A stretch of 64,000 bases of DNA from Meandrina meandrites (taxonomy: Eukaryota > Cnidaria > Anthozoa > Scleractinia > Meandrinidae). The first letter of the stretch is position 1. Each line of letters starts with the position of its first letter. This document shows, in pieces, positions 3,001 through 64,000 of the stretch. The stretch covers positions 20,882,437-20,946,436 of the forward strand of contig OY855905.1 in assembly GCA_963693305.1 (NCBI GenBank), given 5' to 3'. The position numbers and the translations under genes are program-made. The notes under the pieces are model-generated. The model searched no databases. It was given only the letters and a program-made list of their open reading frames with translations, and had not been told where the DNA came from.

Positions 3001-3568
3001 CGTCTGTCATTGTTTCTCTGTCGTCCCTGGATTTTATTGGCGGCGTTTCTTCAAGATACCTTTGATAGCTACTTTCTAATTCCTCGAGCTCATCTCTGTC
3101 GAGGTCTGTCATTGTTTCACTATCTACTTTTTCTACCTCACCTTTACCTTTTCCATCCGTGTAATCGGTCGGTGACAAATCTTCAAGAAGGTTTCTGTAT
3201 GATTCCTCCAACTCGGCCAGATCTTGCCAAACAAGATCAGTCATGCATTCTTTATCGTTCTTTTCCAAGTCAAACTGGCCGCCATTTGCCCCAAGTCCCT
3301 CTGGAAAGCCATTCAGATATTTCCTATACATGCTTTCCATACTAACCAAGTCCTCCCAGACCAAATCTGTCATACACCACGTGTCCTCGGTTGGAACTCG
3401 TAACTCTGCATGCTTGAGGTGATCAATTCCTTCTAGTCGCTGGTCTCTGAAGCTTTCTATATCATCAAGCTCGCTCCATTGAAGATCCGTGAGCGTCTCT
3501 CGGTCACACGTGATGACTGATAAGCTCCTTGACTCGTCAAATTCAGACTTTAAGGATTCGCTGTTGTA
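1..3568 (-). CDS. JAKMIP-like exon 18: long acidic MTDL repeat domain, incomplete at the left edge
   Basis: One open frame of 1189 codons with no stop, opening after a TTTATGTTCAG acceptor and leaving the window at base 1. It is built of about 25 units that each begin with Met-Thr-Asp-Leu or a close variant. The right half (about 3500-1570) has diverged units 35-65 residues long, some with Trp at position 6 (MTDLVWEDL, MTDLVWQDL). The left half (1570-97) has twelve similar units; most are 42-45 residues, beginning MTDLTVSDLQYLEDVE, then an AAHEECL block, a DKQEE block and often VEKQNAE, and two are shortened. Composition is very acidic and likely helical. No signal peptide or membrane segment is present. 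I do not recognise the domain. The repeats could be a polyvalent binding array or a spacer; this is inference. Confidence 0.8.
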
Positions 3569-41054: not shown

Positions 41055-44000
41055 ATGGATCTCAATCATGGCGGCGCTGTGGTAAGAGAGGAATATCAAG
41101 AAATTCGCAGTGTTTTCAGCAGTGGAAGAGACCATTCTGGCATTTCAACTGTTCTGTTTGATCCTCTTGAAGAGCTGGTTTGGACAGGAAATCAATCGGT
41201 GGGTAATACATGAAGAGATAGTATCCATAAAACTAGTTGTACCTATCGGTAAGTGCCAACGAGTGAACAGAATTAGTAAGCAAGTGTTCACTGAATTTTG
41301 TAATATTTATTTGGGATACTTCTAGCATAACAGGTGTTCAAATTAACTTCTTTTAGTTAAGGTTTCCAATTCTGTTGTAATTGAACACATTGTTTATTTT
41401 TTAACTAATTGAGCGAACAAAACGTTGAACACTTTGATTTTGCATTTTTGAGGTTTCTTGTCTCCCAAAGACAATGTTCCAGACACGTTCACCCTTTGAT
41501 TTGCTTTAATTGTTGAGACCTGTCTAATAGTAGCATCTGTACTTAGTATTGGTTGGTGAATTGTTTCAGGTTTTACTTGTTCTTCATACAGAAATGAAAT
41601 GCCAGAATTTGCACACGGATATATGCTGTTGACTGTTGGTTAAAGAGCCAGTCACTTTCATTCTCTTTGACGATAACATCTTTTAAAAGAACTGGTGTTT
41701 CAGAATCCTGGTAGAGTTGTATATGGAGATATGTAGAGGTGTTGAATCCTACGACTTCTAACTTTGCTTGAAGCAGTTGGAAGTTGTACCACTGATGCTT
41801 TGCTTGTTTTTTTTTGGCTGTTTTGATTGGACTGAGGTTGTGAATATAGCCATGCTTTTTTCTAGGAAACAAGAGCAAAAGAAAATTAAAAAGAAACGTA
41901 ACATTGGGCTATAAAAAGGAAATGGGGTTTAAAGATGCTTTCCACCCAGCAGAAACGGGAGTGTTCGTACCTTTTGTCTCCTTGGGTGATTTTCTTTCCA
42001 TAGCAGCTGCTTTAGTTTCCTTTATAGGGTGTTTTGCATCTGGAAGTTCTCACATGTTTTCAATTACACAAGTTCTGAAACAGATATGACAGAAAATGTG
42101 TTACACATGAGGAATGGAATAGCATAAGATATGATACCATGATAAAGGAAGCAGCCTACGGTACTTGAATACTTTCCTAGATAGTCCAAGCAAAGGTTCG
42201 TAAAATCATTACAGAATCGCGCCCATTGAAAAGCGTCGCACGGGAAAATGCAAATAAGCTAGAAATGACACACAGAGCATGCGTAACTAAAGAACGGCCT
42301 GTCAATTTTTCTGTCAATCAAGTAATCCCCTGTGTAGGTTGACTTCACAAGCATTGTTCTTGCTCAGACTGCTATTTATCAAAGAATAATAGACGGTAAT
42401 TTGTTGATGGTTTCGCATAAACACTGCACGCTCTGTTGATATAAATGTGACCGTGCACAGAAAAATGTAGAAAACATTAAAAAACATTAGCATTCTTTTA
42501 ACAGGTAATGTAGCCGTTTGATATCCATTAGAAACGGCATGTGTAGCTGTTTGGAAAAGAATAACGCAAGAGGAAGCGGCTCTTGGCAGTGTCCAAACAA
42601 AAATTCACGTCTCAATGCACGGGTCAAATTTCAACAGAAATTTGCATAAAGTTGTTTACATTTTGACAGCCGACTACATGTGAATATTGTAAACGCACAC
42701 TCCAAGTTTACTACAACTCAAGAAAAGTAACTATGTTCTAGCGAGAATTTCGATTGTTATTTGTGCAAACCGAAAGTACTATCGAAAGAAGCCGGCCGAA
42801 TATTTCGTGTCGCTTGCCGCGTTGGCACATGCTGTGAAAAAGTTGCCGCTTTAATTTGGCCCTTGCTATTTGCCTACCGCTAATTGCTTACACTGATGAA
42901 AACTTTAACATAAAAGGTAGCTCAGCTCATTCATAAACAACATAAATAATTAGCCACTATAGTCAGCATTTTGTAACAGAACTCGAGTCACACCAAGCGG
43001 TGTTTATTTTGGGTTTGTGCAAAAAGATTCTTATCGTATCTCACCGACAGTTTCCAATGTTTTGCACACATCACTTCGCTTTTTAAACACTTCAGATGAA
43101 ACCATTACATTTGCATTGTCTTTTAAAGGACTCGAGGGAAAAACTCTTAACTCCCTTTTGGGAATTCATCACTTTAGGATCACAAGAAACCGAAAACAGC
43201 GGCAGTCTTTACAACCTCGTTTCCAGGGCGTTGTGCTCGCAAAGCATCATGGGCACCCCACATTTCTCGGGCGACGCTTTTCAATGGGCGCAATTCTGTA
43301 ATGGTCTTCGAGTATTAATTAACTAAGTCAGTGTGGACAGCACAGCTTTAAGAATTTGATGTCTACTGTGACTGTACACTTTTGAAAAAAATAAAATGGA
43401 TTTCCATGTCTTATGTGTCCTTGTTTATTTGTAATAATAGAAGGATTATAGCTTCCATTTGAAGCACGAGAAATCCTTCGAAACAAATATTTTCCAGTGT
43501 ACCATAGTTGGTGGAGTGTACTTAGGAATGTGAACGCCATACCGAAAACTACAAAAGTACTGTTTTGATGCTACTATGTTACTAAACATCGCACTGTTCG
43601 CTCTGGCATGGCCATGAAATATCAACGATAACAGCAAAAATACAACGCAATACATTATGGCCATAATGTGAAACGGTTTCTTCTAGGCAAATTAGTTAAT
43701 AGAGACGAAAGTGTTGAGCAAAGCACAGTGTAAAACAATCTTACATGTAATATGACGAAGATTATCAATGTCGTTTGTTTAATTTGAACGTGTTTTTAAA
43801 GGATTATTTGAAATGAATTCGGTGATTCGCGGTAGGTTTTTAAGTGATTTATGGTATTTGTTTGTTTGAAGTTTCTTTTAGTTTTAAGAACTTTGTTCAG
43901 AGCTCGTCAGAAGCTAAGTGAACTCGTTGGCTCGATTTGGCTTCTTTGGCTCTATCAACACATTAAATTTACCAGCAAAGGGCGCTTTTGCTCGAATAAA

Positions 44001-47000
44001 CACTTGAATGAGGTTTTCCAAAAGCAATTCAACCGCAACAAATCCAAGTTGTATCACCTCAAAAAGCAGAATGTCAGAAAAACTACTTTTTTAATACCGA
44101 AATAATTCGACGAATGGATGGCGAACGAATCCTGAGCGTTCATCCTGAATCAAATAAACGACACTCGAATTCATTCCAGAAATAACTCGGTTCTTGTTCA
44201 GCTTAACAATTGTATGATACAACCACAACAAATCCAAGATGTATACGCCTCAAGGACTAGAATTGTAGGCCAATTACTTACCGAAATAATTCGTCGAACT
44301 GATGGCGAACAATTCCTGAGCGTTATCCTAAATCAAATAAGTCATAAACAACACTCGAATTCATTTCAGAAAACAACACGGATCTTGCTCAGCTTTAACA
44401 ATTGTACGATAAAACCACAACAAATCCAAGATGTAAACGCCTCAAAAAGCAGAATTGTAGGCAAATTACTTAAGTACTTACCAAAATAATACTAGGATGA
44501 GGTTCCACATTCAGGAGAGGTGAACAAATATCTTCGAAATAATTCGACGAACGGATGGCGAACAAATCCTGAGTTTTACCCTGAATCAAATAAACAACAC
44601 TCGAATTCATTCCAGAAAACAACCCAGGTCTTCAGGTTGTACGATACAATCACAACAAATCCAAGATGTAGGTAAATTACTTACCGAAATAATTAGGCGA
44701 ACTGATGGCAAACAACCTGAGCGTTACCTGAAATAAACAACACTCACGAATTCCAGAAAACAGGGTTCTGATTGGTTCGTGCGCATTTTTCGACAACTTC
44801 CGGCTACATCCTAATATGGTCAAAAAAATATCACTGACGGAACCGGATTACGCGAAAATCGACTTGAAAGATCTGAGATTTTTTCTGCATAGCCCTCGAA
44901 CTACGCACGGCTCTATATCCTGCCGCCGAGACAGGCTCGCGTTTTCGCTCGCCTGTCTCGTTGGCAATTATCAGAAACAGATGTGCTAGATGAGAGAGAA
45001 TAAACTCATTTTTCTTAATATATGCTAGCTTATTCCTCGACAGAATGACAGCCTGTAGGTGTTGAATAAATACTAGCTGAAAAGAAAAATTAACCAGTGC
45101 ATAGTATTTAATTTTTATTTTTTATACCATTTTATAGTTGTGTTAGAGACGCTTCTGTTCATTAATTTTATCTGATTTTATACTATACTCAGTCAACAAT
45201 ATATAGTGTGCTACCAAACTATTGCTAGATGTACATTGTAACCCTGTGATCATTCTAGAGATGGTATTTTAAACAAAGTCGATCAGCTTGGCTTTGAATA
45301 GACTTCAGTGACAACCAGCTCAATAAGAAGGTACAAATTACACTGTACATCTCACTTAACATTATACAGCTCCAAAATCACTTTTCAGTAGTAAGGCTAA
45401 TGCTACGATTTGTCGGCCTGATTTGTTGCCAATGATATAACAGGAAGTGAATATACAGTGCAGGCAGTGCATATGTATTTTAAGGGTCAAAACTTTTTCT
45501 TTTAAAAAGTTTTGAAAAACAAAATGATTGCTGACAAAAATTAGCCCACCAAATCAAAATTATTAGCCTTTATACAGTAATTGCTTTTTGGGCAAAGTCA
45601 AGTTCCCTTTATAAATCCATTTTCCCTTTATTTAAATTTAATGCTCTTTGTTTTTACTTGAAGGGCTACTTGGCTTCTTATTTTGGACCAGAACTTCAAA
45701 AGTACACATCATTCAAAGTTCACCATGAGGAAATCCGTCATGTGACAGCCAATGATCTTGGGATACTTTCTCTCTCAAGTAATGAACTCTGTTTCTCAGC
45801 TCGTGCAGGACTTCGATTGTTTAATCTCAGGTCAGTTACTATTAAGAGCAGAGAACTACCATTGAGAAGGGCTAAATTTTGCCTGCTTCATGCACTGTTG
45901 GCTTCATTCAGTGGTTTCACAAATACCAGGTGGCCACTAAAGTTGAAGCTTTTATTGAACTGGCAATAAAGAAAATTTTCACTTGCAGCCAATCAGGTCA
46001 AATTTTCTTTAATTTCTACATTTAAACTCATCACCAATAGATGCATAAGCTCGGGGAAGGTACCTTAGATATGGCATTGTCCTGCATAATTCTATCAAGT
46101 GCATTCACTCATGGCAATCCTGAGAGCGGCAACTGCCAGCCACTGTAAGTTGCACTCATGGAATCAGTGGAAAATACTTGCCAATCCAGATACTTACCAA
46201 ATCCTAGTACTTTCTGTGTAAAAAGGGTGGGAGGAGTGGTCGAACAGCTGAAGAGCACAGATAAACTCGAATGCAAAGCCAGATAACTGCACATCTTCAC
46301 ACAGCTGGAACAACAAGCATGTGATGCCCCCAATAAGAATCCCAATACACACGACTGCCACCAAGCACCACTGACCGTCACTGGCTTAAAAAAGTCTGCT
46401 AAATTTCAAAGTCACACTCTGGTCAACGTGTCCCACACTCCTGGGAGATTATCCAGCTTTCCATGGGTATAACACAACTACACTAGACTTAGGGATCATA
46501 ATTATTGCCACTCTGTCCTGTCAACTTTTGGGTCATTTAGTCCCCGGCCATTTTGTTGCTCTGCTTTCCTCCGTATTTTTGCCCTTTTCTACAATGTAAT
46601 AATGTGTGCAGTCATATTTTGTGCGTTCACTTGACCTAATATCAATTGTAAGATGACACAGTGGCCAATGCAAGCCAGTGGAATAATAAAATGTGATACA
46701 ATGTATGAGTTCTATTATCACTGTTTATATTAATTTTGAGATAATGACTGTGTGATCACTCTGCAGTCAATTTACTATTCCCGTTTGAGGTCATTAATAA
46801 TCTCTGTCAATGTTTTCAAATCTTTTACAGTGGCTCTGAGCTGTCAGACTTGCAGTGTATGCTACAAAGAGATGAGACACATCTATGGGTGGCTGGACAC
46901 CAGGGCTTGATGTTAGAAGTTGACTTGAAGAAAGGAGTCATCAGTAATAAGGTAACTGCAATGATGGTCAGCAAAAAATAAGCATTTTGCAAACAGAAAT

Positions 47001-50000
47001 GCTGGAAAGATTTTAAAGATGACGTTTTTATGTGCTACTGATGTACATCAGGTGGTGACTAAATGCTTAAAAATTAAAGAGCTTCTACAGCAGCTGTTGT
47101 TTTGAAAGTGTAGGCCTACCTTCGCAACACTGTACGTTTGTGAAAGTCCCTCCTTATCATTAGCTAACTAAATTAAATTGGGTACCCTCGGTAAGCTTTG
47201 TGTCTTCTTGGTGTTGTGAAGATTTCCAACAGCTGAAGTATTTATTTAAGAAAAAACACAGTACTATATTGTACATTAAGCTTATTGATTTTAAAGTTCA
47301 TTGTATATATTGCATTGATAGGTTATAATATATTATGTTGCTTAAATTTATTATTTTGTTTTGCATTAGACTGAAGTGGATCCTGGTACTGTTGTAATGA
47401 AGCAGTCTTCTCGGTATCTTTGCTGTGGTGATACAGCTGGCAAGGTACAACAAGATCCTGGGTATGCATGTGTACAATGTAATCCAGACAAAACAGTCTG
47501 GTTATATGCAACAGATGTACACATTTTGCCTATTACTGAGTACGGACGGACGCAGATTTCTGGGGAGCGATCTCCCTCCTCAACCCCACCACCTCACAGT
47601 TTCATGTAATACAGTCATTGTATAATCCCTGCAGATGCTGGAGATTTTTCAATGCTAGAGGCTTACCATGCAGTGTTGCTTTATGCCTAGTTTCCAATTT
47701 AAAAGTAATGAACTAATCCTGGATAGGATGCCATGAATCCTTGATATGTTGGTATCAATCTAGAGCTGTATAAATAATTAAGTACACCAGAGACTCAGAT
47801 GTGCAAACTAAGGAACATTATTAAGGTGCTTGAAAATTTTGTGTTACCTGTTAAATGATGAAATGTATCTTTTAAATATGTCTGAGATAACAGCCCGGGG
47901 GGGCACTCCCATATATGGGCTATATAGGTATGTGCCGCGGGATAGGGTATGGTTTTTGGGTTCTCAGTCCTTAAATAGGGTATCATTTTTGCTCCTTTTG
48001 GCATTGTGTTCCCGGTGTTATCCTTAGATAGGGTACCTAAATTCTATCAGCTAAAATAAATGCCCAACTAAATGTAACAAAAAAAATGGTCTGTTTAAAC
48101 TATAAACTATCAACTAGTAGCAAAGCGATTTGTACAGATTTGTGTTTTGCCACGTGCGGTTAGCCGTTATTTGGATTGTCACCCAACGCTTCTCCTCTCC
48201 TTGAATAGGGTGTCATTTTTTGGGTTTGAGCCTTAAAAAGGGTATCAATTTTCGTTTTCTTTATCCTTAAATAGGGTCAGGGTTTAAGAACCTTCGTGGC
48301 ACACCCCTATCCAAAATTTATGGGAGTACTCCCCCCCCCCCTGGGGATAACAGTCAGAGAACAATGTGTAATCTCATTCATTTGACAGGTGCGACTGAGA
48401 GATCCTTCTTCTCTTAAGAGCGAGCATGTGCTAGAGGCCCACACAGGCACTCTGTCAGATTTTGATGTATCAGGAAATCTTCTGGTCACTTGTGGGTTTT
48501 GCTCAAGGTACAAGATCTTTAGTCAAAATTGATTGTTTGCTCATTATAAAGATTCAGTGCTTATTGAGAGAAAAAAAATTATTTTAAATACATAATGCTT
48601 TTTTTAAAAAACCAAACATCCATTCAGCTTGCATCAAGCTTTACGCTGAAACTTGGTCAAAGGCTCCCTGTCAAAGTGTTGTAAACTTATTTTTGAGAGC
48701 ACTTCACAAGTGCTGTCAGAATTTCAGAACTGCACTGTTTAATATGCACATTAGCCAATTTCTAGCCGGCCAAAAGGTCTGAAACTCACCTACATGTATG
48801 CCTGTGGGCAACACAATCAGGAATGGCCTGTTAACAAAGCCTGAATTTATTAATAACACTTTTGAACTGTTTCTTGTAGGATGGGGCATTTGGCAATAGA
48901 CAGATTCCTTATGGTGTATGATCTTAGAACTCTAAGAGCCCTTCCGCTCCAGGTAAAATTGTACAGTGTATATTGATTTCATTCTTGTGTCCCAGGGGGG
49001 TGGGGAGAGAATCCTTTGAGGAGTGTTTTCGAAATTTTCTGGTGAGCAGCCCTGTCAACTTTATAGGGGAGTCCCCTCCTGGGCTTGTGTATTGCATTAG
49101 CAGCAATGCACCAAATGCCGATTTGTTTTATATGTGTATCTTGTATAATTATTTGAAATGATCTGCAAGTTTCAACTACAACACTGTCAGTGCTGTTTGG
49201 TTGCCTAAATGTGTTTGCTTGACTGTTTAGGTTGCTGTTGATCCACTGATGTTAAAGTTTGTTCCAGCATTTACATCAAGAGTAGCAGTTGTTTCCCAGG
49301 TCAGGGTACACTTAGTGTACATGTACTTGTAGAGAGTGTTTTTAATTGATTAAATATAATAGACATGAAAAAAATTACAGTAACTTAATTCTGATTGACT
49401 AAAACAGGAGTGCAGTTTTTGTGTAACATGGTGAATGCAAAAATGTGTAACACCAGTGCAAATTACAAACTGATTATTCGTTTGATTTATTTTAACATGG
49501 GAATAGTTCCAAAATTATGCTGTAACTTACTATGTTTTATTTTCTGTCTTTGAATATATTTCACTTCTTAATATCTATTATTAAATCATCGAGAAATTGC
49601 GCGCGCTGTGATTGGCCAGTTTGAGTTCATTATAGCTCCATAAAGCACTCTGCTTACGTCGCGCGCGTGCTTTATGGAGTTATAATGCACGCTGCTTACG
49701 TCACAAGTTTTAGCGCGCACATTTTCTTTAACATTTTATAAAAGAAATAAAGAACTTGTCCTCGTGCATTGTTGAGTTATATAAGCACTTGGGAATTTTT
49801 AAGAACACTCGAGAAGTGCGAGAAGCACTCGGCTACGCCTCGTGCTTCTCTATGCACTTCTCTCGTGTTCTTAAAAATTCCCGCGTGCTTATATAACTCA
49901 ACAATGCACTCAGGCGCGTTTTTTATTTCCTTAATATTTATATATATGTTTTCTTAGAATGGTCAGTTCCAGCTCCATGAACCAGGTGGTCTGGTCACGC

Positions 50001-51222
50001 AGTCGTCAATGATGGTATACCATGTCAACACTCATGGAACCTTATGTACAACATTTGACATTTCTGCAACATGTCAGGCTATGGTATTTGGTGATGCAGG
50101 AGGTAATTTGTACAGTGAGACTTTTAAAGCCAATAAAAAGTGGCATAAAATTTGCATCAGTTTGTATTCAAATTGTAGGACACCCCAAAAATCTGTGTAA
50201 TGATTGGAACCATATAATTCTCTATTTCCAGGAAATACACATCTATGGGGAGATACCCAGGAAAAAGAAGTAGCTTATAATGTATATTCAAGACCAACAG
50301 AGTTCGCACATCCAGTAAGTGGCTGCATTAATAGAGAGGTTAAGCATGACGTTTACGGCAAACGGCAAAAATCGAACTTTTGGTGTCTGATTTTAGCCGT
50401 TTGTACAATTTAGGGAAATTGTTTACATTTACGGTGATTAAGGGATTTTTTTCCTATTTTTCGACTGGCTTTATTTAAGTGCTAAAGAAAAAGTGAGCAA
50501 AATCAGAATTATTTTTGCCGTTTGCCGTTTGCCGTAAACGTCATGCTTAACCCCTCTAATATTTTCAAGTATCAACGTGAAGTAGTTTCTCAAAATGAAT
50601 GTTAAATTTGGCAAAATTTGCACAAATTCATTTCTTCTAAGAACAGAGAAATGAGCATTAGAAAGAAACCATCTGGTGTATTCTGCTGCCTAAAGAAAAG
50701 TCTTAAGCACGGTGGTAGCACAACGTTTGAAACCATTCAGTTTGGCAGGCCTTGCCGTGCCGCATGACATTAGAGCGACTTGGTTTCAAATGCTGTACTC
50801 TTGTTCCGGTTTGTTTTGTTGTTTCTGATAAAATTTGGAATTTAGCGTTACTGCATTAAATTCGACGTTTCAAAACATTGCCGTGCTATCGACATGCCAC
50901 TGCCAGGCCAAATTCATTTGCGTTCGGCACGGCAGTAGCACGACGTTTGGAACAGACCTATTAAGTGTAAGAATGTAAGAATGTCTAAAGTATGTTTATT
51001 AACAAACATCAATTAAATCATCAGAAGAAACGGACCAAGTACCAATCATCGTTCTATGGACCCTTGTCCGCACACCACAAAACTGATGTTTTCCATATAT
51101 TGAACTTAACTATTGGACCAGCTCACGCTGTGTTTTTTTTTCTGGCAGATCCCTCATCTTCCGCCTTTGGCTATTGATGATTACTCAGTCCCTTTATCTT
51201 CATTTCCTCTTCCAATGTCCAA
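41055..51222 (+). CDS. PAN2: PAN2 exons 1-10: N-terminal WD40 domain
   Basis: PAN2 is the catalytic subunit of the cytoplasmic PAN2-PAN3 poly(A) nuclease, which makes the first trimming of mRNA tails. Exons: 41055-41198, 45664-45830, 46831-46951, 47370-47444, 48389-48507, 48880-48952, 49231-49299, 49958-50102, 50232-50314, 51149-51222. The start ATG is the first in frame, and a GTG|GTAAGAG donor-like site inside exon 1 is not used, because the frame runs on to family sequence (VLFDPLEELVWTGNQS). The encoded beta-propeller blades match PAN2 order: GYLASYFGPELQKYTSFKVH, LQCMLQRDETHLWVAGHQG, LCCGDTAGKV, GTLSDFDVSGNLLVTCG, MVYDLRTLRALPLQV, FVPAFTSRVAVVSQ, CTTFDISATCQAMVFGDAGG, SRPTEFAHP. This domain contacts PAN3 and RNP. 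Intron 1 is 4.5 kb. Confidence 0.92.
41573..41878 (-). pseudogene. possible exon remnant of an uncharacterised transposon-associated protein
   Basis: After a TTTCCTAG acceptor the minus strand is open for about 97 codons with protein-like content (GYIHNLSPIKTAKKKQAKH, YNFQLLQ, VVGFNTSTYLHIQLYQDSET). This is reminiscent of repetitive uncharacterised proteins common in cnidarian genomes, but I cannot name a family. The neighbouring upstream segment (about 41970-42030) reads KHPIKETKAAAMERK up to a donor at about 41970, with a stop just upstream, so the gene looks broken. Confidence 0.35.
44096..44760. repeat. tandem array of a ~150-250-bp unit
   Basis: CGAAATAATTCG recurs at about 44096, 44283, 44535 and (as CGAAATAATTAGG) 44686, each followed by GATGGCGAAC, an ACACTCGAATTCAT block and ACAACAAATCCAAGATGTA. 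About four degenerate copies with internal deletions are present. On the minus strand most units carry a donor-like CGGTAAGTAATTTG. Confidence 0.8.
47894..48345. mobile_element. 452-bp CCCGGGGGGG-ended element with 8-bp target duplication
   Basis: GATAACAG occurs exactly at 47886-47893 and 48346-48353. The element starts CCCGGGGGGGCACTCCCATA and ends with a long C run then CTGGG, with mirrored GGGAGTACTC and TGCCGCGG/CGTGGCACA blocks. Several AAATAGGGT copies are internal. The 8-bp duplication suggests hAT. It lies in PAN2 intron 4. Confidence 0.8.
49590..49915. repeat. nested inverted repeats in PAN2 intron 7
   Basis: A long hairpin (about 49754-49905) pairs TGCATTGTTGAGTTATATAA with its mirror TTATATAACTCAACAATGCA through arms containing GGGAATTTTTAAGAACAC and AGAAGCAC, around a loop TCGGCTACGCCTC. 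A second palindrome (ATAGCTCCATAAAGCA / TGCTTTATGGAGTTAT) precedes it at about 49632-49684. Confidence 0.7.
50330..50569. mobile_element. 240-bp element with long terminal inverted repeats
   Basis: TAGAGAGGTTAAGCATGACG then TTTACGGCAAACGGC at the left is mirrored by GCCGTTTGCCGTAAACGTCA then TGCTTAACCCCTCTA at the right. Arms are about 36 bases with one mismatch near the end. No coding capacity. In PAN2 intron 9. Confidence 0.75.
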
Positions 51223-51731
51223 GTAAGTCGCCACATTAAATACATGTATTTTGTAAAGAACAAATAGAAAAAAAGCTTAGTTTTAAGTTTCTATTTGTTG
51301 CTAGTTCTGACGACCTAGTTTGTACATATAACGTATAAAATATGTATAAGGATGTCTCAGTTTTGTTTACTGAATGGAGGGAATTTGTACTTACCAGTTT
51401 AAATTAGTTTTTTTAGTTCTTCGAAATCATAACAAAATCGTTAGACAATTTGCTTTGGATAGATTAAAACATCAGGCAATATATTACGGCGTGTGCCTAA
51501 CTTATAGTGAAATAAAATATGCACATGATTGAACACAGCCTGTAAGTTATGTATTACCCAATGTTTGTTCAAAAAACTCACTTGTAGATACTTGTAAACG
51601 TCCTCGCCCATTGCAAATCCAGTTATTGGCGTAGTTTGTTCTCATATTTTACAACGTAATTCTAAACGTAAGACTGATTTGTGTATTGAAACTAACTGCG
51701 TTCTATTTATTTTTGTTTCATCTTTTCATAG

Positions 51732-54700
51732 TGGGGCTCTTCTTTCTGACTGGCCAGAAGAAAATATGGTGGCTGGAGACAGGTATGAGAACACTATGGA
51801 CTCTGAATTGATTATCTTTTACTTTGATGAAATAAAATGCGTTGAATATTAACCACTTTTCATTCTCTCACAGACCTACTCCAGCAATTGAACCTGAAAT
51901 TCTTCGCACTGTGGTTGTGAGGCATTTTATCGGCTATGCACCAAACCCTGGCAACAGAAAACGAAATCAGGTACTGTAAGTTACTTGTGTAACATATTAT
52001 TAAAAACTAGCAATGGTATATTGCAATTCCTGAGTTTTGATTGGTTAACAGGCAATGGTATATGAGCTCATATACCACAAATATCGTAGCCGATACGTGT
52101 CAACGAAAACAGCTGGGGAGCTCAATTATTGCAATTCTTTTGGGCGTTTTTAATAAAACAATTATTCCACTCGCGCTTGTTGAATATGAGATCGTTATAG
52201 CCAATGAAGCGCTACGCGCCTCGTTGGCTATCTACCATCTCATAGCCAACGCGCGAACTACTTGTGTAAGTTGCTGGGCTTGTTCATATGCATATGTTCT
52301 CCCTTGAGTGCACCGTTTACTAAACCTTTCTGTCTCGGGAGTGAAATAGTGGAAGTGCGTGTTTTTCTTGGGTACAAGGGTATAAACTTAACTTGCTAGT
52401 GCAGTTTTTATGCAAATCAATTAACCAGTCCATGTGCGTTTCATGATGCCTGTTATTTACTTAGTTTGCAATTTGTTTTTACTGTACTGACAAAATTTAT
52501 TACCTCACACCTGCAGATTTACTCTATGAGGACAACAGTTCTTTTATGCAGGCGAAGGCCAGTGGCGGATCCAGACCTTCAGCTAAGGAGGGGACCCGCT
52601 TGACTATGAATGTTGAATTCTGCGAAGATAATTCCAGCGCTTCAAAGAAAATGCGCTATTCCGAAAAAATAAGGTGGGGGCCCGGGCCCCCCGGGCCCCT
52701 CCCCTGGATCCGCCACTGAAGACGTACCAATCTATGAATACATTGATTATTGTAGCCGCCTTTGCTTGTCTTAATGCGTATTTTTTTAAACTTTTAAATT
52801 TGTTTAGGTAGCATACCCTCTGAAAGATACAGCAATCATCTCTCCAGAGGAGGAAAATACTGTTCCGGATTCGCCCATGAACAGAGGTACTGTCAGCTGT
52901 TCCACGTTATATCCACCAACCACCTTCCCTCGCCTGGAATCATACAGTATTCTGAAAAGAATGAAGCGGGACATCTCGCTCCGCCATCTTTGTAATAGCC
53001 TGGCTGGCTGGCGGGAATAGCGGGCACGAGTGAATTTTTTCCTCGTATATGTTCGCCCGCGCGAGGACTCGCCCGATCCCGCGCGGCTTCGCCGCCAAAA
53101 CAAAAGCGCAGGACCATTAAAAAAGCACTCGCTCGCGAAATCCCGCCAGCTACGCAGGCCATCTTAGGCTTGATTACCAGCCGCTGTCCGGGGAGGAACA
53201 AAGACCGGACTAGAGATAGCGGCGGAAATCGAGCCTAAGGCTATCTTTGTGTCATTTGCATAGCGTTTTCCTCAATTTGCTAGTAGGAAATAGGGGCTTC
53301 TTGGTAAGGTGGATTCGTTATTTAGGCTGTCAATAAAGGAAATTGGACTAGAAGAAATTGCTTCAAGTATTCAGCGACAGAGCAATTCTGTATGTGTGAT
53401 TTCAGACGATGATCCTGGCAGCATCATACCAAAGCACTACAGAAGAGTGGAAATCAAATATTCCAAACTTGGTAAGTTACGTCGACGCAGTACTTAAAGA
53501 ATCAAAGACATGATGATGACAAGTGCTTTAGTTGCTGAAGCAGAAAATACAACATTTGACGCTAGGTGACGTTTTCTACATTTTTCTAACTTACATCGTT
53601 TCAAGACAAAAAAGATGCCAGAAAATAGCGGGCTGTGAACAGTCTAGCGAAAAACGAAAGGCAATGGGCATTTTAGTTCAATAGTGCTAAACGTAACGTG
53701 TATAGTTCTTCTGTTTCCTTGTTTTGAAGTTAAGTTTCTTGCTTGATGTATGATGTATTCTTTATGTTGTCATTTCAGGTGTTGAAGACTTTGATTTCAA
53801 ACACTACAACAGGACATCGTTTGCTGGATTGGAAACACACATTCCTAATGCGTACTGCAATGCCATGCTACAGGTAGGCATCAAGACAAAAAGACATTCT
53901 TAACAAGATCTCAATATGTGACACTTCTTTCTTTTTAAAAGTGTTATGGCCCTGTTTAATGAAATAATAGTACGTGATAGGCATTTTTTGCATTGCCCAA
54001 ATACAAAATCAGAACGGACTTTCAGTGTAAAACGCCGACATAACAACGTTCGGTGTGCTCAAGCTTTGTCCTGATTGGAACAAAAATCGGAACTGTTCGG
54101 GTACTTCACGAAGATTGGTCGGTAACAGCACTTGTGATCTTTGACAGTGTATGCCGTCTGACGCTTTATTACATTTTATTTTTTTCCTAGCTGTTTTATT
54201 TTATTGAGCCTCTGAGAGTTGGCATGCAAAACCACTTGTGCCATCGGGAATTCTGCCTAGCTTGCGAGCTTGGCTTCTTGTTTCACATGTTGGACATGTC
54301 ATCTGGGCAAACCTGTCAGGTAAGAACAATCCTAAGTCCGCTATTCAAAACAAATGCTTAGATGAAGCTGGGAAGTTCGAAACAAAAGCCTGGCACTCTC
54401 TGGGCTTGTCACGCAATCTTTCCTCGGACGATCGCGTGACGAGCCCAAAGAAGCTAAGAAAGAAAACTTTTAAAATATACATAACAAGGGAGTTTTTTTG
54501 TCAACGTGTGTAATTAGCGTTTGCTTGCGAACGATCCAATCCAAGAGAAAGAATCAATGTAAAAGGCTTCTTTGCTCATGGGATCTTAGTTTCATAATCA
54601 GTTTTATGTTTGAAACAATAATCATTTAATAGTAACTTGATTGGAACATTAATTCAATGTCGTCTTGTTGACGAGTTTATTGATTCTCGTCACCTATCTA

Positions 54701-57700
54701 CTTGTCAGTGTATTGATTTTGTAAGGAGAAATTATATCTTAGTCGTTCTTCTAACTTAGTTAGTTAATAGTTCTCTCTTGATGTGAATATTATGGAACAT
54801 TTGCAGGTGAAACTTTAGCGGTAATTTCTTGCACTTGATATGCACCTTCTCCCTCAATCTTCCCCCAAAGTCTGAATAGAGTTAATGCACTGGTACTGCT
54901 CCACATCGAGCGGCCCGGTTCGACTGAGCCGGCCTTGGCCGGGGTCACTGCGTTGTGTTCTTGGGTAAGACACTTTACTCTCATAGCGCCTCTCTCCACC
55001 AAGGAGTATAAATGGGTACTGGCGAATTTAACGCTGGGGGTAACCCTACCATGAACTAGTAGCATGCCATCCAAGTTGCTTAATGCTGTTGAAGCCGGGA
55101 TAAGTTCCTGCCTGATGGGCCACCAGGCTTGTATGCAGACTTTACCCAACTTGTTCCACGTGGTAAACATTGATAAAGACAGGATATTATCGTCTCATCG
55201 TCTCTTGTTTATTTCTCACAGGCCAACAACTTTCTTCGAGCTTTTCGCACAATTCCCGAGGCAGCAGCGCTTGGTTTAGTTTTAAATGATGTTGACGAGT
55301 CATTTGGAAATGCTAACTTTCCCCGCTTGATACAGAGCTGGTTTAGATTTGTTCTTCAGCAAATGCACCAGGTAAACTGCTGTTTGTTTTACTTATAGTT
55401 CTTCTTTCCTCACCTTGGAAGCCGATTTATAGCAAGATATCGACTGTTCACGCAAACGGTGGGTCTTTCCTTGGACATGTTGTGTACAGCTAGATTATCA
55501 TTTAAATTTTTGTTGATCTTTAACACTTTTCTACCGACAGGACACCCTTGAACCACCAACTGCCGTGGAAGGAGTAAAGGATGACAAACAAAATCCGTGA
55601 GTACAAGAACGTTATGCCATAGTACATTCAACCCAACTAGGCAGCCAATCAAAGCACGCGTTTTATACCATTTTATGATCCACTGTGCTGATACTAAGGT
55701 TTTCATCTGTCCTTTTAATGTAATGTAGGTTGAGCAAAGCGCAACAGTCTTCCATCATTCATCGCTTGTTTGGTTCAAATGTTCAGATGCTAAGTCGCTG
55801 TCGCTGTGGTAACGAGTCCAAAAGAGATTCCACCACATTGCTCTTCAATTTAGAATACCCTGAACTGTCCGATGGTAAGATTACCTTATTCGTTTTCTCT
55901 TTTGTATACATGTAGTTATTGGGAGAGACTACTTGTTTCTTTCAGAATCTCATTTCTTGAGCTCGTTGTTTTGTTTTATTTTTCCTTTTTTTCATTCACG
56001 TACGTTAGTTCAACACGGTTGACGGCAAGTCTTGCTGTTCAATTTTCGGTCATTTTCTTGTGAATCGCGTATTACGTGTTTACTTTCTTCAATGAGAAAA
56101 TTTAACGTTTGCACTTACAGTTTTCTAATGGCTCTCTCGTGAACTCTCTGGAAAAGAAACGCGACGCACAGTCATGAAGAAGGTAACTCCCTTCTGAGCC
56201 GAGGTGGAATTTTACGATCGAATTGTTATTAAAGGCAATCAATGGACAACCCTTTCTCGTAACAAAGAAGATTGATCCGTGATCGACAAAATTGCTAAGC
56301 TTTTTACTTAAGTTAGCGAAGGAATGCCTTGTAACTGATTTCTTTTTCCTCGTGTATAGAGAAACAACAGGGTTCTGTGAGCTTCGAGTCCGTGTTGTTG
56401 TCAAGTATGTGCCGAGAACAAAGCATGCAAGCTTGGTGTGACCAGTGCTCGAGATACCAGCCTACGGTAGGCGTTTTGCTTTTTCAGATCTGACCAGTTC
56501 GCAGCTCGTCTTTGGCCGCTCCTCGCTTTGCTTTCTTCTGGCATTATAACAGAACGATATTCTGTCCAATTTAGACATAAATATAATTGGATGAAGAAAC
56601 TTCTGAATACTTCTAAACAAGGCAAGGCCGAGTCCAGTTTGGTTAACCAACAACCATTTAGTCTTGTTACGTATTAACTGTTAACCGTTGGCTCCTTGAC
56701 TGGTTGAAAATGTTTGAAACCAAGCCAAGTGAAGGATGTTACAAATGAATTCAACATTTCGAGGAGTGGCGGCGAGTGCATTTTACCCACCGGAAGATAG
56801 GTTATCTTTTCAAAGTGTATTTTTGGGAAAAGCGATGGGTAAGAATGAAAGGGTGAAAGAGAACGGCCAATTAATTTCTTTAAAGGCTTCATTTCTTTCA
56901 CTAGCGACAGAGCGCGACGGAGTCGGAAGAATGAAAACATTTCCATTTTCTACATTTCCATTTTCTTCCGGTTCCACTATCCAGTGAAAACTAGGTTGTC
57001 GGAGTTGCAGGTATAGAAGCGGAAGAACAGACCAGTTACAATGCTATAGTTCTAGTTCGCACTTCGAGTGCTTCCTTTCTGCTTGCGACTCCGACAATTT
57101 AGTTTTTACTAGTTTTTTTATCGAGATCATAGCGACAGAGTTCACCGCGGTCAAACGCTTGAGGCTGTTTTTGTTTCGGAGGAAATCGTTCACGGTGATG
57201 TGAAAACATCAGCAAGGATATGTAAAATAGCTGCCGAGTGAAAATATACTTTCTGTTCTCCCTAACAAAACAGGTTTCTTCACTTTTTAAATGCTCCTCA
57301 ACCCGTCCAAAATTGCTTTGGCAATGGCGCCGACAGTCCGCATTTCCCCGTTTTCAAACACTTAGAATTTTATTAGTAAAGTTCCAAAAAATTTAGTAAA
57401 TCAGCATAATGTCGTTTAAGTATTGAACTTTGAACAGTGGAAAGGAAAGCTTATTTTTGAATTACTTTTCTTGCTTTTTGTTGTTGTTGTTGTTGTTTTT
57501 TTTACGTTTGACCACGGTTAAGCGACAGAGTCATAAGCTGAATCGGGACTCTGCTTATGACTCCATCGGTTTGATTTTCACTAGATCGTAACACTCTGCG
57601 CTTCTGATTACGACTCCGTCGCTAGTGAAAACAAGCCTTTAAGTAACTAAAATGTTCGTGGTATTTTATTTAAGCGAGGTAACATTTCGTTTTCTGCTGT

Positions 57701-60700
57701 AGGTTCAGAGTCGTAAAATTAAGAAGTTACCAGATATCTTAGCATTCAACTGTGGCATGGAACACGCCAAGGAAGTCGACTTTTGGAGAATGCAACAACA
57801 GGTTAGTATGTCTGTAATGCAATATTTATAGCAGGGAGACGAAAAGTCGTGTGCATTCAAGTGAATGAACCAGTTTGAAAACCTTTAGTGAAAGGAACTT
57901 CACCTGCAATATCAATAAATAAAACTTTATTCAAGTGTCAAATTTCGTAGCTTGTGGAAAAATACCCCTTCTACTAATTGTGGGCACCTAAAAAATTACT
58001 TACAAATAACTCATTGATAAGAAAAATTAACACAATACTTTTTAAATGATCTACCTCAAGACTTAAACGAATCCAGTTTGAGTTGAACACAGTTTTAATT
58101 CGTAAAAATCTGTAACAGAAAACCTGACTTAACAGGGGTTCATTCAAGTCAGTGAACAACCTTCATAAGCAACGTTTTTAAAGAAAACAACTTTTAAACC
58201 CGCATATTTAACCGTAAAGTTAATAACGTGTTTATTAGCTTTGTCCTGTATAGCGTGTTACAAAAAAAACGCACTAAAGTGAATGGCTGTTTTTTTAGTT
58301 ACTAGATCCGCCAAAACCTGAAGAGAAACCCACAGTCGCTCCATCAGCCGGCCGAGCTTGTAGATATGGGGATGCTTGTACCAGACCAGACTGCAAGTTT
58401 AGACACGACAGAGACGTGACGTCAGAGGATGGGTATGTTTAAGTTAATACTCAGACGTGGATGTTCGCGCGTTCAGTTCTTTCCTAACCTGCGATCACGC
58501 GTTCTCAGTTTTTTTTGTCTGATTTTTACGCGTAACTAGCGAGCGCAGATAAACGAGATGGCGGTTTTTTCCTTAATGGCCGAACTCGCGAGGGAGATAT
58601 ATCCACGTTTTCTCATAAGCAAGCACCTTGACCTAGATTTTTTATTTGTATTTTTCGAAACAGTATTTGGTAGGGAACATTCAGGAAAATTCTCAAAAAA
58701 AAAATCGTTCGACAACTTTTATTTTTGAGGAATCGCCTTAAATCAAATAACGAGATGAAGCCATAACAAGAAAGTTCACGTTACGATAAGCAAGATCGCC
58801 AAGTTTGTGATGATAGTTGGATAGCGCTTTCGGTATCACTGGTATGGTTGGGAGTGATAAGTTGTTGGTGTTGCCGACAAAATGAACCAGTTCTCTTCAG
58901 AGGACAAGTGAAGAAGTTTTCAATTTCAGCAGTCTCTTAAGATTCATTTTACTTTTCTTCCAATTATTTACGCTTGGATTGTTCTTCATCAGGCGAACGG
59001 ACGCTCCCCAGGACGAAGACCTTACTGGTTGGATTCCATTGTCAATAAAGATATCTTTTGATTCAGGTGGAATGCACGTAACTAAGCTTGATGAGGTACT
59101 TTTACATTGTCAGCTATTTGTACAATAATGGTTTATGCTACTTTACTTGTGTAATGTTCGTCTTTTGAAAGGTTCGTTGGTTAGATTTTCTTCAAGTTTA
59201 AAGTTACTTGAAGAATGCGAAGAAACTCGTGTGTAAGGCAAACTAACTATAACAGGTGAATCTTAGGGTTAAAGAGAAAAAAACGTAGCATCTGCAGTGT
59301 GTTCAACAAGTCATGCAGTGGAAAAAAAAACCTGAAAAAAATTCAGCCTTCAACAGCTTTCAAACCCGTGACCTTTGCGGCCGGTTCTGTCGCAAAGATC
59401 ATGGTTCGAATCCCGTTGTTCAGTCTTGAAACAAAATCATTCGAGCGAGAAAAGTATAAAGCAAAAAAAATCGTCGTCTTTTACGACTCATTTTGTGCTT
59501 ATAGTTGTGAACTCTCAGTCTGAAACTAATACTTAGGTTGAGATCGAAATTTCGAGTTTTCATTACATTCGTAGAAGTCATTTGGATTTGGATCAAATTT
59601 TAAGTGTGGACACAGCTCAGAACTCATCTCAGTTTTTTCTTTGTTCTATTTTAGGGTCAGAAAGTAAAGAGCGCAGAGAACGAGCTCGTGTACGACTTGT
59701 TAGCCACTGTGGGTCATGTACAGGACTTCAAATCTGGTGGAAACTTGGTAACTCACATTCATGTTGGAACAACCTACCACAGCCGAAAAGAGGTGCGAAA
59801 TTTATTTTTATAATCTATTTGGTAATATTAATTTCTTGCGCAGTGAAGAGTATGCCGTGTTTTAATATTGGGCTGATAATTTTTCCGTGTGATTAATATG
59901 CGATACCGAAAGCGCTGTCCAGCTATCACAACAAACTTGGCGATCTTGCTTATCTTAACGTGAACTTTCTTGTTCTGGGCTTCACCCCTTTGTTTAATTT
60001 AAGGTGATTCCTCAGAAATAAAACTTTTTGAACGAATTTTTTGGGAACTTTCCTGAATGTTTCGAAAAATACAAATAAAAATTACAGGTCAGTGTGCTCG
60101 TTTATGAGAAAACGTTGATATATCTCCCTCGCCATTTTGTTTATGGACACTTTGCAGAAATGGCGTCGGCATTTGAATAACAATACTTATACATGCTAAG
60201 CCTCACATTCACGTAAAAAATCTTTTGTCTAGAAACATCCACACGAGGCTTAGGTTGTACAAAGTATTGTTATTCAAATTTGGGCGACATTTATGCAAAG
60301 TGTCTATGCGCGCTCGCTAGTTACGTGAAAAATTCTGCGCAGTAAGCATGCGCAATGCAATACTAAGGAATCACGTTAAATTTTAATCACAGACCCAAAC
60401 GAAAGTTCTTAAAATGTTCTTTTTTACTTCTGACCTAAACCCGCCTCCAATAGGTTCTATACGCTAACGATCGTTAACGTGACTGTACTTCGTTGCGATA
60501 GTGGTGATATAATTGCTTTGTTTTCGCGCACGCTTCGTTAGTGGTAAGAAGTGAAAGGCAGGCTGTAACCGCCGATAGAAATGTTCTCTTTCCTCTTTTT
60601 CAGGGCGTCACATGCAGTCAGTGGTACCTGTTCAACGATTTCGCCATCACTCCTATATCATCGGTAAGCAGTAACTTATTGCTTTCGCATCTAACAGTGA

Positions 60701-61526
60701 TGAACAGCTCGCTTCCTTGCATGAATAGAATTTCAAAGACACAGATCGTACAATTGGTGAAACGTACGGGAAACTTTGCATGTGCCAATCGTAAGTTTTG
60801 GTAACATCATCATATTCCTGATTGGCTTAGAATGGTTTTCACCTGATTGTCTAAAGTAACAGGCGTTTGCTTTGGTTTTGCATTACTACGCTCAGTGATT
60901 TCGCGCCACTTTCCCAACCAATCAGAAGTAAAACCTAAACCAAACACGACTTCCTCGCGCACGTTTTCCCGCGCTTTGTGCCCGCTACATGTATTTGCTT
61001 CGAGTTTTGATTGGTTCACTGGATTGCCTGCGTCCTTTGTGATTGGCTAGAGTGATTACTTTGGATTTGGTTTTACGACACTCACTTGAAAACTGCTCTG
61101 AGTACGTTGTGGTTGTTTTGTAGATCAATTGCAGAGAAAATACAAGGCTAAAACCAAAGAAAGTACAATCATTTTTTAAATCTAGTCATATAAGCTTATT
61201 CTTGATCCACTGATGAAGGGCCAAGCCCGAAACTCTTTGGTTTTTTAAAACTATTTTGGCACTAATATTTAACATTTTTCTCAAGCTATTTATACTCCTA
61301 TTTTTGCCTGTTTCGGCCTTATCTTAAATTTCTTGAAGATGTATTAGCGTGTGTCAGTCTAGAACGCCTTACCGAAGTGCTCTCGAATGTCCAATAATTT
61401 TAAGAAAATAAAGTTACTCTTTGATTTCTCTTTAGAACGATGCAGTTCATTTTTCGCTGGATTGGAAACTCCCATGCGCTGTTGTGTTCACACGGAGAGA
61501 TATAAATGGTCGTCACGAAACCTCGA
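51732..61526 (+). CDS. PAN2: PAN2 exons 11-26: linker and UCH-like pseudo-protease domain
   Basis: Exons: 51732-51782, 51874-51970, 52808-52891, 53309-53471, 53779-53873, 54191-54319, 55222-55371, 55541-55596, 55729-55874, 56360-56466, 57703-57801, 58299-58432, 58993-59095, 59655-59792, 60604-60663, 61436-61526. The linker holds IGYAPNP and VEIKYSKLG. The UCH-like domain begins EDFDFKHYN and has [20 protein letters not shown], where the catalytic Cys position of true USPs is Ala (about residue 513), as in all PAN2. CRCGNES and [10 protein letters not shown] supply the structural zinc Cys pairs. FWRMQQQ and [11 protein letters not shown] are further family marks. The junction of exons 13 and 14 is uncertain: donor at 52886 or 52891 and acceptor before 53294 or 53309; the frame favours 52891. 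Exon 20 uses the TAG before 56360. Confidence 0.9.
52560..52718. mobile_element. CAGTGGCGGATCC-family short element, copy 2
   Basis: CAGTGGCGGATCCAG and CTGGATCCGCCACTG are perfect inverted ends 159 bases apart. The inside matches the inverted copy at 36969-37139 (GAATGTTGAATTC, TTCAAAGAAAATGCGCTAT). In PAN2 intron 12. Confidence 0.8.
52995..53165. repeat. GC-rich inverted repeat in PAN2 intron 13
   Basis: AGCCTGGCTGGCTGGCGGGA and TCCCGCCAGCTACGCAGGC are inverted copies bracketing a GC-rich core (CCCGCGCGAGG, CGCGCGGCTTCGCCGCC). It resembles a short DNA transposon end pair. It precedes the uncertain acceptor of exon 14. Confidence 0.5.
54880..55070. mobile_element. SINE-like element
   Basis: The block ACTGCGTTGTGTTCTTGGG, AAGACACTTTACTC, GCCTCTCTCCACC and GTATAAATGGGTACTGGCGA has the look of the conserved central region of tRNA-derived animal SINEs, and GGTTCGACT upstream resembles a Pol III B box. 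I could not define the ends or a target duplication. Confidence 0.5.
56884..57638. mobile_element. 755-bp element with GGCTT..CACTAGCGAC ends flanked by TTAA
   Basis: TTAA at 56880-56883 and 57639-57642 flanks AGGCTTCATTTCTTTCACTA at the left and the mirrored TAGTGAAAACAAGCCT at the right. Internally, several GCGACAGAG / CTCCGTCGC and GTCGGAG blocks are repeated in both orientations. No transposase. Located in PAN2 intron 20. Confidence 0.7.
58299..58432 (+). CDS. PAN2: PAN2 exon 22: CCCH zinc finger inserted in the UCH-like domain
   Basis: This exon encodes a Pro-rich lead-in, then [16 protein letters not shown], that is C-x5-C-x4-C-x3-H, at about residues 770-785. The spacing is that of the Nab2/ZC3H14 class of poly(A)-binding fingers rather than the C-x8-C-x5-C-x3-H Tis11 type. 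It falls between FWRMQQQ (exon 21) and the segment [10 protein letters not shown] (exon 23). In human PAN2, as I recall it, the same place is a short Lys-rich stretch without such a finger. Splice sites are normal (TTTTTTTAG acceptor, GTATGT donor) and phases fit both neighbours, so the exon should be in the normal transcript. A role in poly(A) recognition is inference. Confidence 0.85.
58530..58850. repeat. dispersed repeat in PAN2 intron 22, inverted partner of 59918-60370
   Basis: The stretch from GCGAGGGAGATATATCC to AAGCAAGATCGCCAAGTTTG, TTGGATAGCGCTTTCGGTAT matches, in reverse orientation, the sequence at 59918-60140. The order of blocks is preserved (AAAATACAAATAAA, GGAATCACC, GAACTTTC). 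Confidence 0.75.
59325..59440. mobile_element. two tRNA-SINE fragments head to head
   Basis: TTTGCGGCCGG lies between CCTGAAAAAAATTCAGCCTT...TTTCAAACCCGTGACC on one side and GATCATGGTTCGAATCCCGT on the other. Each half carries a Pol III B-box-like GGTTCGAA or its complement. The arrangement is an imperfect palindrome of two SINE parts. In PAN2 intron 23. Confidence 0.45.
59918..60370. repeat. dispersed repeat in PAN2 intron 24, with a nested inverted element
   Basis: This is the reverse-orientation partner of 58530-58850. The copy is interrupted at about 60171-60285 by a smaller inverted repeat (TTTGAATAACAATACTT / AGTATTGTTATTCAAA), after which GCTCGCTAGTTACG resumes the match to GTAACTAGCGAGCGC in the first copy. 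Confidence 0.65.
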
Positions 61527-61628
61527 GTGAGTAGTTACAATTGCCCCAGTTCGTACCATCGGTTTTTATGTAATGATAGCAAACAAAACTAATTCTACTG
61601 AAATCACTTTGCTTTGTTCTTGCAACAG

Positions 61629-61987
61629 TCAATCAGAGAATCGATGACAGCGTACTGTACCAAGATGTCTCCCTGGTTAGAAGAGGAAGTGTGTCCCGGG
61701 AGTTCACCCCCCTGGGAACTGATGAGTTGCCGAACGAGGGAGATCTTGTGGGGTTGGACGCCGAATTTGTTACACTGAATCAGGTGCGAAGATGTCTCCA
61801 CGGTTCTCGGGCACTGCTTTCTGTGAGTTATTTACCCCGGCTAAGGGTCTGCCTGTGGCCCGGTGTTTTTTTTTTTCAGCTGTGTTTCATGTTAGAGACA
61901 TAGTGTCCTAATGAGAAGCATACTGGACTACGATTAAAAAACTCTTATCTTTTATTTCAATCGTGTTCTTCTATTCCACCGAATTCA

Positions 61988-62057
<70 letters not shown>

Positions 62058-64000
62058 TTTATAACGCGCAAATTTCATAAAATGTTCAAATGCGCATAAC
62101 AAGATTAAAAACGGAAAGAAGTCTAAAAAGCTAAAATTACAATTAAAAGTGAACTTACAATAATATAAAAGCAACTTTGATAAAAATGCGTGACGAAAAA
62201 GGCGTTTTAGCTTAGCTTTAAAAATACTAACAGTGCTGGCGCTTCTTATATTAAGTGGTAGCAAATTCCATAGTTTTGGTGCAGCATGCAGAGGTAAAAG
62301 AACGGTCACCAACGTTAGCTTTTGATTTAAAACGCGGATAACTAAGTATAAATTTATCGCTTAAAGGAGCTCTGTCACGGGGATTTCGCGGATTTTTTGT
62401 CTAAACTGTTCTGAAATTAGTGGTGTGCAACTTAACCCATGAAAATCATTACCTTTGAACATCCAATGGAAGTTATATCCTTAATATTGTGGATAGAAAT
62501 CTAACTACGGCTATAAATATCGATTTTTTGTAGACGTGCGGAAACAACTTGAAAAGTTTAGCTAAACTTTTTTTTAAATGTAATTTAAAGTTGTCCATTC
62601 ACACTTCTTTTTGGCTCGACCGCGAAGATTGCATTACGAGTCACGGACAGTTTGTGACGTGTCATGCATGACGAGTCAACATCTGCGCAAACGACAAAAT
62701 TGGAAGTTCTTTGTTTTTGTGTTTTAGGAGGAAGCTGAGATAAGGAGCGATGGTACGCGGTCTACAATAAAGCCGAGTCAAATGAGTGTGGCTCGTGTTA
62801 CTGTTGTCCGGGGGTAAGATAGAATTTAAACCAAAGAATACCACAGTTTACATTGCAATGAAATTATGGGTTACTTACAGACGTTGCAAGCGTGCACTTC
62901 TGGGTGCTTCAGCTAAAACTTTCCAATCTTTTAGATTTCCATTTATGCCATTGCTGTCTAATTTCGTCTAGTGTTTTTTTTTCCTCTTTCTTGTTTTCTT
63001 CTTTACGCTTCTCACGACACCTATCGCTTTTAAAATGTCAAAACTCTAGCAGGAAAGTTTTGACACAGTTCTTCAATGTGAAGGATATTTCTTCTAGCAA
63101 GCAACCACCCCCTGTAAGATAATCATTTCTCTTCCTTGAATGTTCGCCTCCTTAGACTTCTAAGACGTGCAACGAAAGAAACCATTTGTTTTCTTTGGAG
63201 TATGAGAACATTCTATTCTGACATTTAGCTTAAGTGGCGTTTATACAAATTCCTCTGTAAACAACGAACAGTCAAAGCCCGTTACTCATTCAAATATTTT
63301 TTCCTTTCTAGAGAAGGCCCATTAGCTGGCGTGCCTTTTATAGATGACTACATTTCAACGACAGAACAGGTTAGTGTGTGACTTGTCTTGGAGCTCATCA
63401 GACGTTGTTTTATGATGCTGTGCCTACTCACTTTGGCGTTAAAATAACGAAATGATTGTGGATATCTTTCAAAACTTATGTCCTTCAAACCGAAAACTTG
63501 GCTTAGGTATGATAGTGTAAAATTAGATATTCAGACGGTGGCAAACAGCTACTGCATTACACAGAAAGCTTGTTCAAAGGCACGGTTTTGCTGCAAAGCT
63601 GAAAAACTAAAACGCATCTATTAAAACATTGATATTAAAAAAATATAAGTATTTATTTTCTGCCCACAATTACGCTAACAGCAGGACGACATTCTAGACC
63701 GTGTGAATTGTACTTTTAGAAATAAACTGCTATTAAGAAACATTTTCAGTTTGTAATACAGCCGAATTATATTACAAATAACATGTTTCTCAAAAACAGT
63801 TGAGTTCAAGTGGTGTAACACGATCCGTGCTGCTAGCCAAATGTCGGTCCACTTATTCCAGTTTAGAACTCCCTATGGAAGTTTTCATGCTGTAATTTCC
63901 ACTTTTTAGGTTGTGGATTATCTAACAAAGTTCTCCGGTATAAAACCAGGTGACCTGGACGCCACAATGTCCTCCAAGCATCTCACAACACTAAAGACAA
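61629..64000 (+). CDS. PAN2: PAN2 exons 27-30: DEDD exonuclease domain, truncated by the window edge
   Basis: Exons: 61629-61783, 62728-62813, 63312-63369 and 63910 to the window end. Exon 27 carries [18 protein letters not shown], whose Asp and Glu (about residues 968 and 970) are the first metal ligands of the RNase D/DEDD fold. [27 protein letters not shown] and [18 protein letters not shown] follow in family order. The later Asp ligands lie beyond base 64000. Comparison with the roughly 1200-residue human protein implies about 150 residues are missing. Nothing indicates a pseudogene. Confidence 0.92.
61985..62056. repeat. (AAT)n microsatellite
   Basis: About 23 uninterrupted AAT units in PAN2 intron 27. 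The minus-strand poly-Tyr open frame over it is an artefact. It is followed by sequence (to about 62330) that resembles a LINE or other repeat remnant but was not identified. Confidence 0.95.
62361..62572. repeat. dispersed GGAGCTCTGTCACGGGG repeat, copy 2
   Basis: Same orientation as the copy at 3910-4122, with small indels (for example GCGGATTTTTTG against GCAGAGTTTTGG). Located in PAN2 intron 27, between the microsatellite at 61985 and exon 28. Confidence 0.75.

Follow-up and report, generated by a model that had tools for sequence, protein, structure and literature searches.

A Nab2-type CCCH zinc finger inside the pseudo-deubiquitinase domain of PAN2 from a stony coral and other invertebrates

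The PAN2-PAN3 complex performs an early step in the shortening of messenger RNA (mRNA) tails. The poly(A)-binding CCCH finger described for this complex belongs to the other subunit, PAN3, at whose N-terminus Cys14, Cys23, Cys30 and His34 form a C-x8-C-x6-C-x3-H motif (PMC4158885). According to the same source isolated fungal Pan2 is unable to bind RNA, and Pan3 contributes the poly(A) finger (apparent dissociation constant about 60-100 uM), a PAM2 motif and a basic surface. A different kind of finger occurs in Nab2 and ZC3H14 (Pfam PF14608; structures 5l2l, 2lhn and 4lj0). It has the spacing C-x5-C-x4-C-x3-H, a basic residue after the first cysteine (Cys1) and aromatic residues two positions after Cys1 and Cys3. 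In the crystal structure of Chaetomium Nab2 with poly(A) this basic residue and the aromatics stack on bases, and fingers with both aromatics hold two adenosines (PMC3874189). Changes to the adenine-stacking residues of yeast Nab2 lowered its affinity for A8, as reported in PMC3384006. Here we describe a finger of the Nab2 type in PAN2 itself, encoded by a single exon of the PAN2 gene in a 64,000-nucleotide stretch (the window) of the genome of the coral Meandrina meandrites.

The gene runs from a start codon at 41055 through 30 exons, encodes 1020 residues without a stop and is cut by the window end (Table 1). Introns are GT-AG in 29 out of 29 cases. Its identity as PAN2 follows from the N-terminal WD40 domain (PAN2_N; Pfam cut-off 26.6 bits) and the UCH pseudo-deubiquitinase domain, which UCH_1 matches with 327.7 bits over residues 439-824 in the first gene model. 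Pfam also finds the start of the DEDD exonuclease domain, which when complete would have four acidic residues; RNase_T exceeds its cut-off of 24 bits over a domain fragment, the remainder lying beyond the window end. Exon 22 is bounded by the acceptor ttttttag/TTA and the donor TGG/gtatgttt, encodes 44 residues and leaves a codon open at two bases, which exon 23 completes. It carries one C-x5-C-x4-C-x3-H motif, the single occurrence in a six-frame translation of the window, and the exons on either side are part of the UCH domain. Two coral homologues are 78% and 80% identical to it. Splice sites, reading frame, the UCH_1 match and the homologues thus bear out the initial annotation, which had placed a finger on its own exon, with good splice sites and matching phases, inside the UCH domain of PAN2. 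On sequence grounds a chance origin of the motif is excluded, because 137 homologues hold it at the same site. A short-region search, in which 130 candidates were scored, gave nothing new among the 7 matches listed.

It might be objected that exon 22 arose as an artefact of gene modelling, or that it is a cassette exon or a functionless relic, since model confidence at the finger is middling and the full-protein Pfam score stays under its cut-off. Splice sites, frame and homologues led us to reject the first two of these. Moreover, the exon is 134 nt long, so that skipping it, as computed, shifts the frame and yields 22 wrong residues and then a stop upstream of the nuclease; constant skipping, a case for which the initial annotation had allowed, would leave a truncated protein. 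For 28 finger-bearing homologues the longest contig is shorter than 10 kb (e.g. P0006, 1132 aa on 3886 bases, 82% identity), and judging from contig size these are probably spliced transcripts that include the finger. A relic, finally, would not be expected to keep residues fixed across all phyla listed. We regard this whole group of explanations as very improbable.

By sequence, the PAN2 finger is a CCCH domain of the Nab2 type, from which we infer zinc and RNA binding. A profile built from 26 PAN2 fingers and compared with solved structures found the poly(A)-binding fingers of yeast Nab2 first (5l2l, E 1.8e-6 for the best of its fingers and 2.5e-13 for all three combined), with further Nab2 matches to 2lhn and to 4lj0 (1.4e-4), and 25 of these 26 fingers match PF14608 at E 0.01 or better. 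Both results agree with the type originally proposed. The profile check of the coral finger itself came out divided: PF14608 (cut-off 25.8 bits) gave 26.6 bits for the finger as a 25-aa piece, 24.8 for the whole exon and 19.7 in the whole protein. In the precomputed Pfam annotation PF14608 is assigned to just two of the 234 PAN2 proteins listed (P0012 and P0193), which means that ordinary annotation mostly misses the finger. All 138 PAN2 fingers (137 bearer proteins, amphioxus contributing two) have Arg at Cys1+1, Tyr or Phe at Cys1+2 and Phe or Tyr at Cys3+2, the pattern of Nab2 fingers that hold two adenosines. Gly at Cys1+3 and Arg or Lys at Cys2+2 are also kept; several other inner positions are variable and the linkers drift. 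Selection for adenine contact would leave such a pattern, without the pattern being proof of the contact.

The same searches bear on a second explanation, namely that the finger reads some other RNA feature, e.g. an A-containing motif in 3' untranslated regions, and so steers PAN2 to chosen messages. Behind Nab2, the 26-finger profile also picks up the fingers of Muscleblind (E 5e-4), whose RNA targets are different ones. Nab2 is itself thought to bind A-placed motifs outside tails, according to PMC3874189. However, a single finger touches too few bases to mark out a particular target, and the Nab2-like pattern is identical across all phyla listed, so that we consider such a role improbable.

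The spread of the finger was followed in 234 distinct PAN2 proteins, made up of the best 120 of 1560 and the best 120 of 282 homologues with six shared; counts refer to proteins and include isoforms of one species. In a MAFFT alignment the finger falls at one and the same position in 137 of them, by a filter that accepts strict C-x5-C-x4-C-x3-H and would score a variant spacing as absent. None of the 234 has the motif elsewhere only. Listed cnidarian bearers include Orbicella, Exaiptasia, Paramuricea and Rhopilema; the bilaterian ones are echinoderms, hemichordates, amphioxus, nemerteans, a brachiopod, molluscs, an annelid, a tick, crustaceans and many insects. A fly is among them, Drosophila bipectinata (P0216), D. 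melanogaster being outside the listed matches. The finger is thus common to the sampled invertebrates and no peculiarity of cnidarians. Neither is it shared by all PAN2 proteins, a case that had been left open. The remaining 97 lack it: 91 named vertebrate proteins, three fish-like ones (P0045, P0068 and P0081), two fungal ones (Racocetra and Paraphysoderma) and P0207, a EukProt protein labelled Nk52, which we assume to come from an ichthyosporean. The named vertebrates, all 91 of them without the finger as the initial annotation had stated for vertebrate PAN2, span a ray, ray-finned fishes, Xenopus, birds and mammals. Sponges, ctenophores, placozoans, tunicates, cyclostomes, nematodes and flatworms lie outside the listed homologues.

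Three observations on individual proteins may be added. PAN2 of Branchiostoma (P0012) has two tandem fingers within residues 880-920, the sole such case among the 137 listed bearers. In eight fish PAN2 proteins (P0066, P0076, P0080, P0099, P0106, P0109, P0118 and P0120) the stretch at the finger site is strongly unlike that of other fish, as if the exon there had been swapped, skipped or mispredicted. P0206 from Tigriopus californicus (1969 aa) is a PAN2 record that also matches the kinase-type families PF07714, PF00069 and PF18397; perhaps PAN2 and a PAN3-like protein are joined in it, or two genes were merged in the gene model.

As the finger is common to the sampled invertebrates, vertebrates look like a lineage of loss. 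On a tree built by a quick method from 45 chosen rows (the window and 44 of the 234 homologues, finger columns excluded) the trait requires two changes; none of 500 shuffles was as low, and their mean was 10.1. The vertebrate branch received full support (100) in the Shimodaira-Hasegawa-like approximate likelihood ratio test (SH-aLRT). Because the tree sets arthropods outside cnidarians, against the species tree, we rely on it only for the forks at which vertebrates and outgroups branch off. The simplest reading, given that the three outgroup proteins (the two fungi and P0207) have no finger, is one gain before the cnidarian/bilaterian split and a single loss in the ancestry of the sampled vertebrates. 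Both events are dated coarsely, since the lists contain no tunicates, no cyclostomes and none of the earliest animal branches.

Compared with the described systems, the PAN2 finger resembles Nab2 in motif and differs from it in setting. Nab2 proteins carry a tandem array of three to seven fingers (PMC6371209), whereas PAN2 has one, or two in amphioxus, inside a nuclease subunit; a tandem array of the Nab2/ZC3H14 kind was found neither in the window, with its one motif, nor in any listed homologue save amphioxus. A PAN3-type identity was rejected on ligand spacing (5-4-3 against 8-6-3). The solved Pan2 proteins 4czw, 4q8h, 6r5k and 9qtu are of the fungal or vertebrate type and have no finger. 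Those aligned were from S. cerevisiae and Neurospora, together with the vertebrate-type 9qtu, which we take to be human PAN2. At the finger site 9qtu has an unrelated stretch and 4czw a very short loop, so a tail gripped with the finger in place is unseen in these structures. Foldseek and VIA-align matched the UCH-Exo body throughout and were uninformative on the finger.

We propose, as the more probable of the explanations considered, that animal PAN2 exists in a form with a Nab2-type finger on flexible linkers in a loop of the UCH domain, giving a weak extra grip on poly(A), and that this form was gained before the cnidarian/bilaterian split and lost before the sampled vertebrates. The insertion follows the LPDxL...DFW segment and precedes the W[VI]P strand, flanked by linkers that have low confidence (predicted local distance difference test, pLDDT) in the structure model. 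Most likely the finger folds round one zinc, and most likely one or two tail adenines are held by the Arg and Tyr/Phe that follow Cys1 and by the Phe/Tyr at Cys3+2. Tethered beside the exonuclease, this mobile finger would give a weak poly(A) contact that works by avidity and adds to the PAN3 finger, the link from PAM2 to the poly(A)-binding protein PABP and the recognition of stacked poly(A) by the nuclease itself. The outcome may be higher affinity or processivity.

Several points weigh against this proposal. Besides the full-protein PF14608 score below the cut-off and the Muscleblind matches, the structure model gives the finger middling confidence (pLDDT blocks of 73 and 63); AlphaFold2 modelling of exon 22 alone was poor (pLDDT 59.8, predicted template-modelling score 0.17) and was not used. 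Lone fingers are reported to bind weakly: Nab2 depends on tandem fingers, and the affinity of the PAN3 finger is in the range quoted above. Removal of the PAN3 finger in yeast is described as having a modest effect. The conserved residues could also be kept for folding or for contact with another protein. The last point leads to the explanation that the finger serves to dock a partner (PAN3, PABP, GW182 or some other protein) and has a conserved surface that is not used for RNA. The pseudo-deubiquitinase fold is known for protein contacts, and it is in this domain, matched by computed fold, that the finger sits; RNA binding, moreover, is deduced from its sequence. Yet the residues fixed in all 138 fingers are the adenine-contacting ones of Nab2, and among solved structures its nearest relatives are poly(A) binders. 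Docking is in our view unlikely, though it deserves more weight than the other two alternatives.

Should the finger bind tails, PAN2 would recognise its substrate differently in flies and in vertebrates, and its loss from the latter would be a natural experiment on an added poly(A) contact. A further-reaching idea, which is possible but which we hold with some doubt, is that invertebrate PAN2, unlike the isolated fungal Pan2, finds and holds tails partly without PAN3 by means of its own reader, and that with the loss of this reader the vertebrate line became dependent on PAN3 and PABP. Results obtained with the yeast and vertebrate enzymes would then not be transferable to flies and other invertebrates. 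A search of the open-access literature found no report of a zinc finger in PAN2 in the titles and abstract openings listed.

Table 1. Position of the PAN2 gene, its finger and neighbouring domain segments in the window
Feature	Position	Strand	Basis
PAN2 gene (30 exons)	41055..64000	+	GT-AG introns, no stop, coral homologues
PAN2 exons 1-9, N-terminal WD40 domain	41055..50314	+	PAN2_N 249.1 bits; exon 1 from homologues
PAN2 exon 21, UCH segment preceding the finger (LPDIL ... DFW)	57703..57801	+	Gene model, coral homologues
PAN2 exon 22, finger-bearing	58299..58432	+	134 nt; enters in phase 0, leaves two bases into a codon
C-x5-C-x4-C-x3-H finger, Nab2-type zf-CCCH_2	58359..58406	+	Motif scan, Pfam and profile searches
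PAN2 exon 23, UCH segment following the finger (WIPLSIK)	58993..59095	+	Gene model, coral homologues
PAN2 exons 27-30, start of exonuclease domain (GLDAEF), cut by window end	61629..64000	+	RNase_T 26.9 bits

The Pfam domains, homologue searches, finger alignment, exon-skipping computation and tree, and part of the comparison with solved Pan2 proteins, are based on a first model of 29 exons without exon 1; in the finger region this model is identical to the 30-exon one. Orbicella faveolata provided a close named homologue among the matches listed (89% identity over 78% of the query region). For one PAN2 exon a start at 53352, with a weak acceptor, was rejected; homologues set the start at 53406. 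The intron between exons 27 and 28 contains a perfect AAT microsatellite of 22.7 copies (61988-62055).

In the window an Rfam search found nothing and ARAGORN no tRNA. On the minus strand, an open reading frame at positions 2-3637 encodes 1212 residues and continues past the window edge; it contains acidic repeats of about 42 residues (MTDLTVSDLQYLEDVEAAHEECL...), matching tandem repeats of 126 bp. Two overlapping frames on the plus strand (37395-38880) presumably represent the C-terminal part of a reverse-transcriptase protein of a long interspersed nuclear element (LINE).
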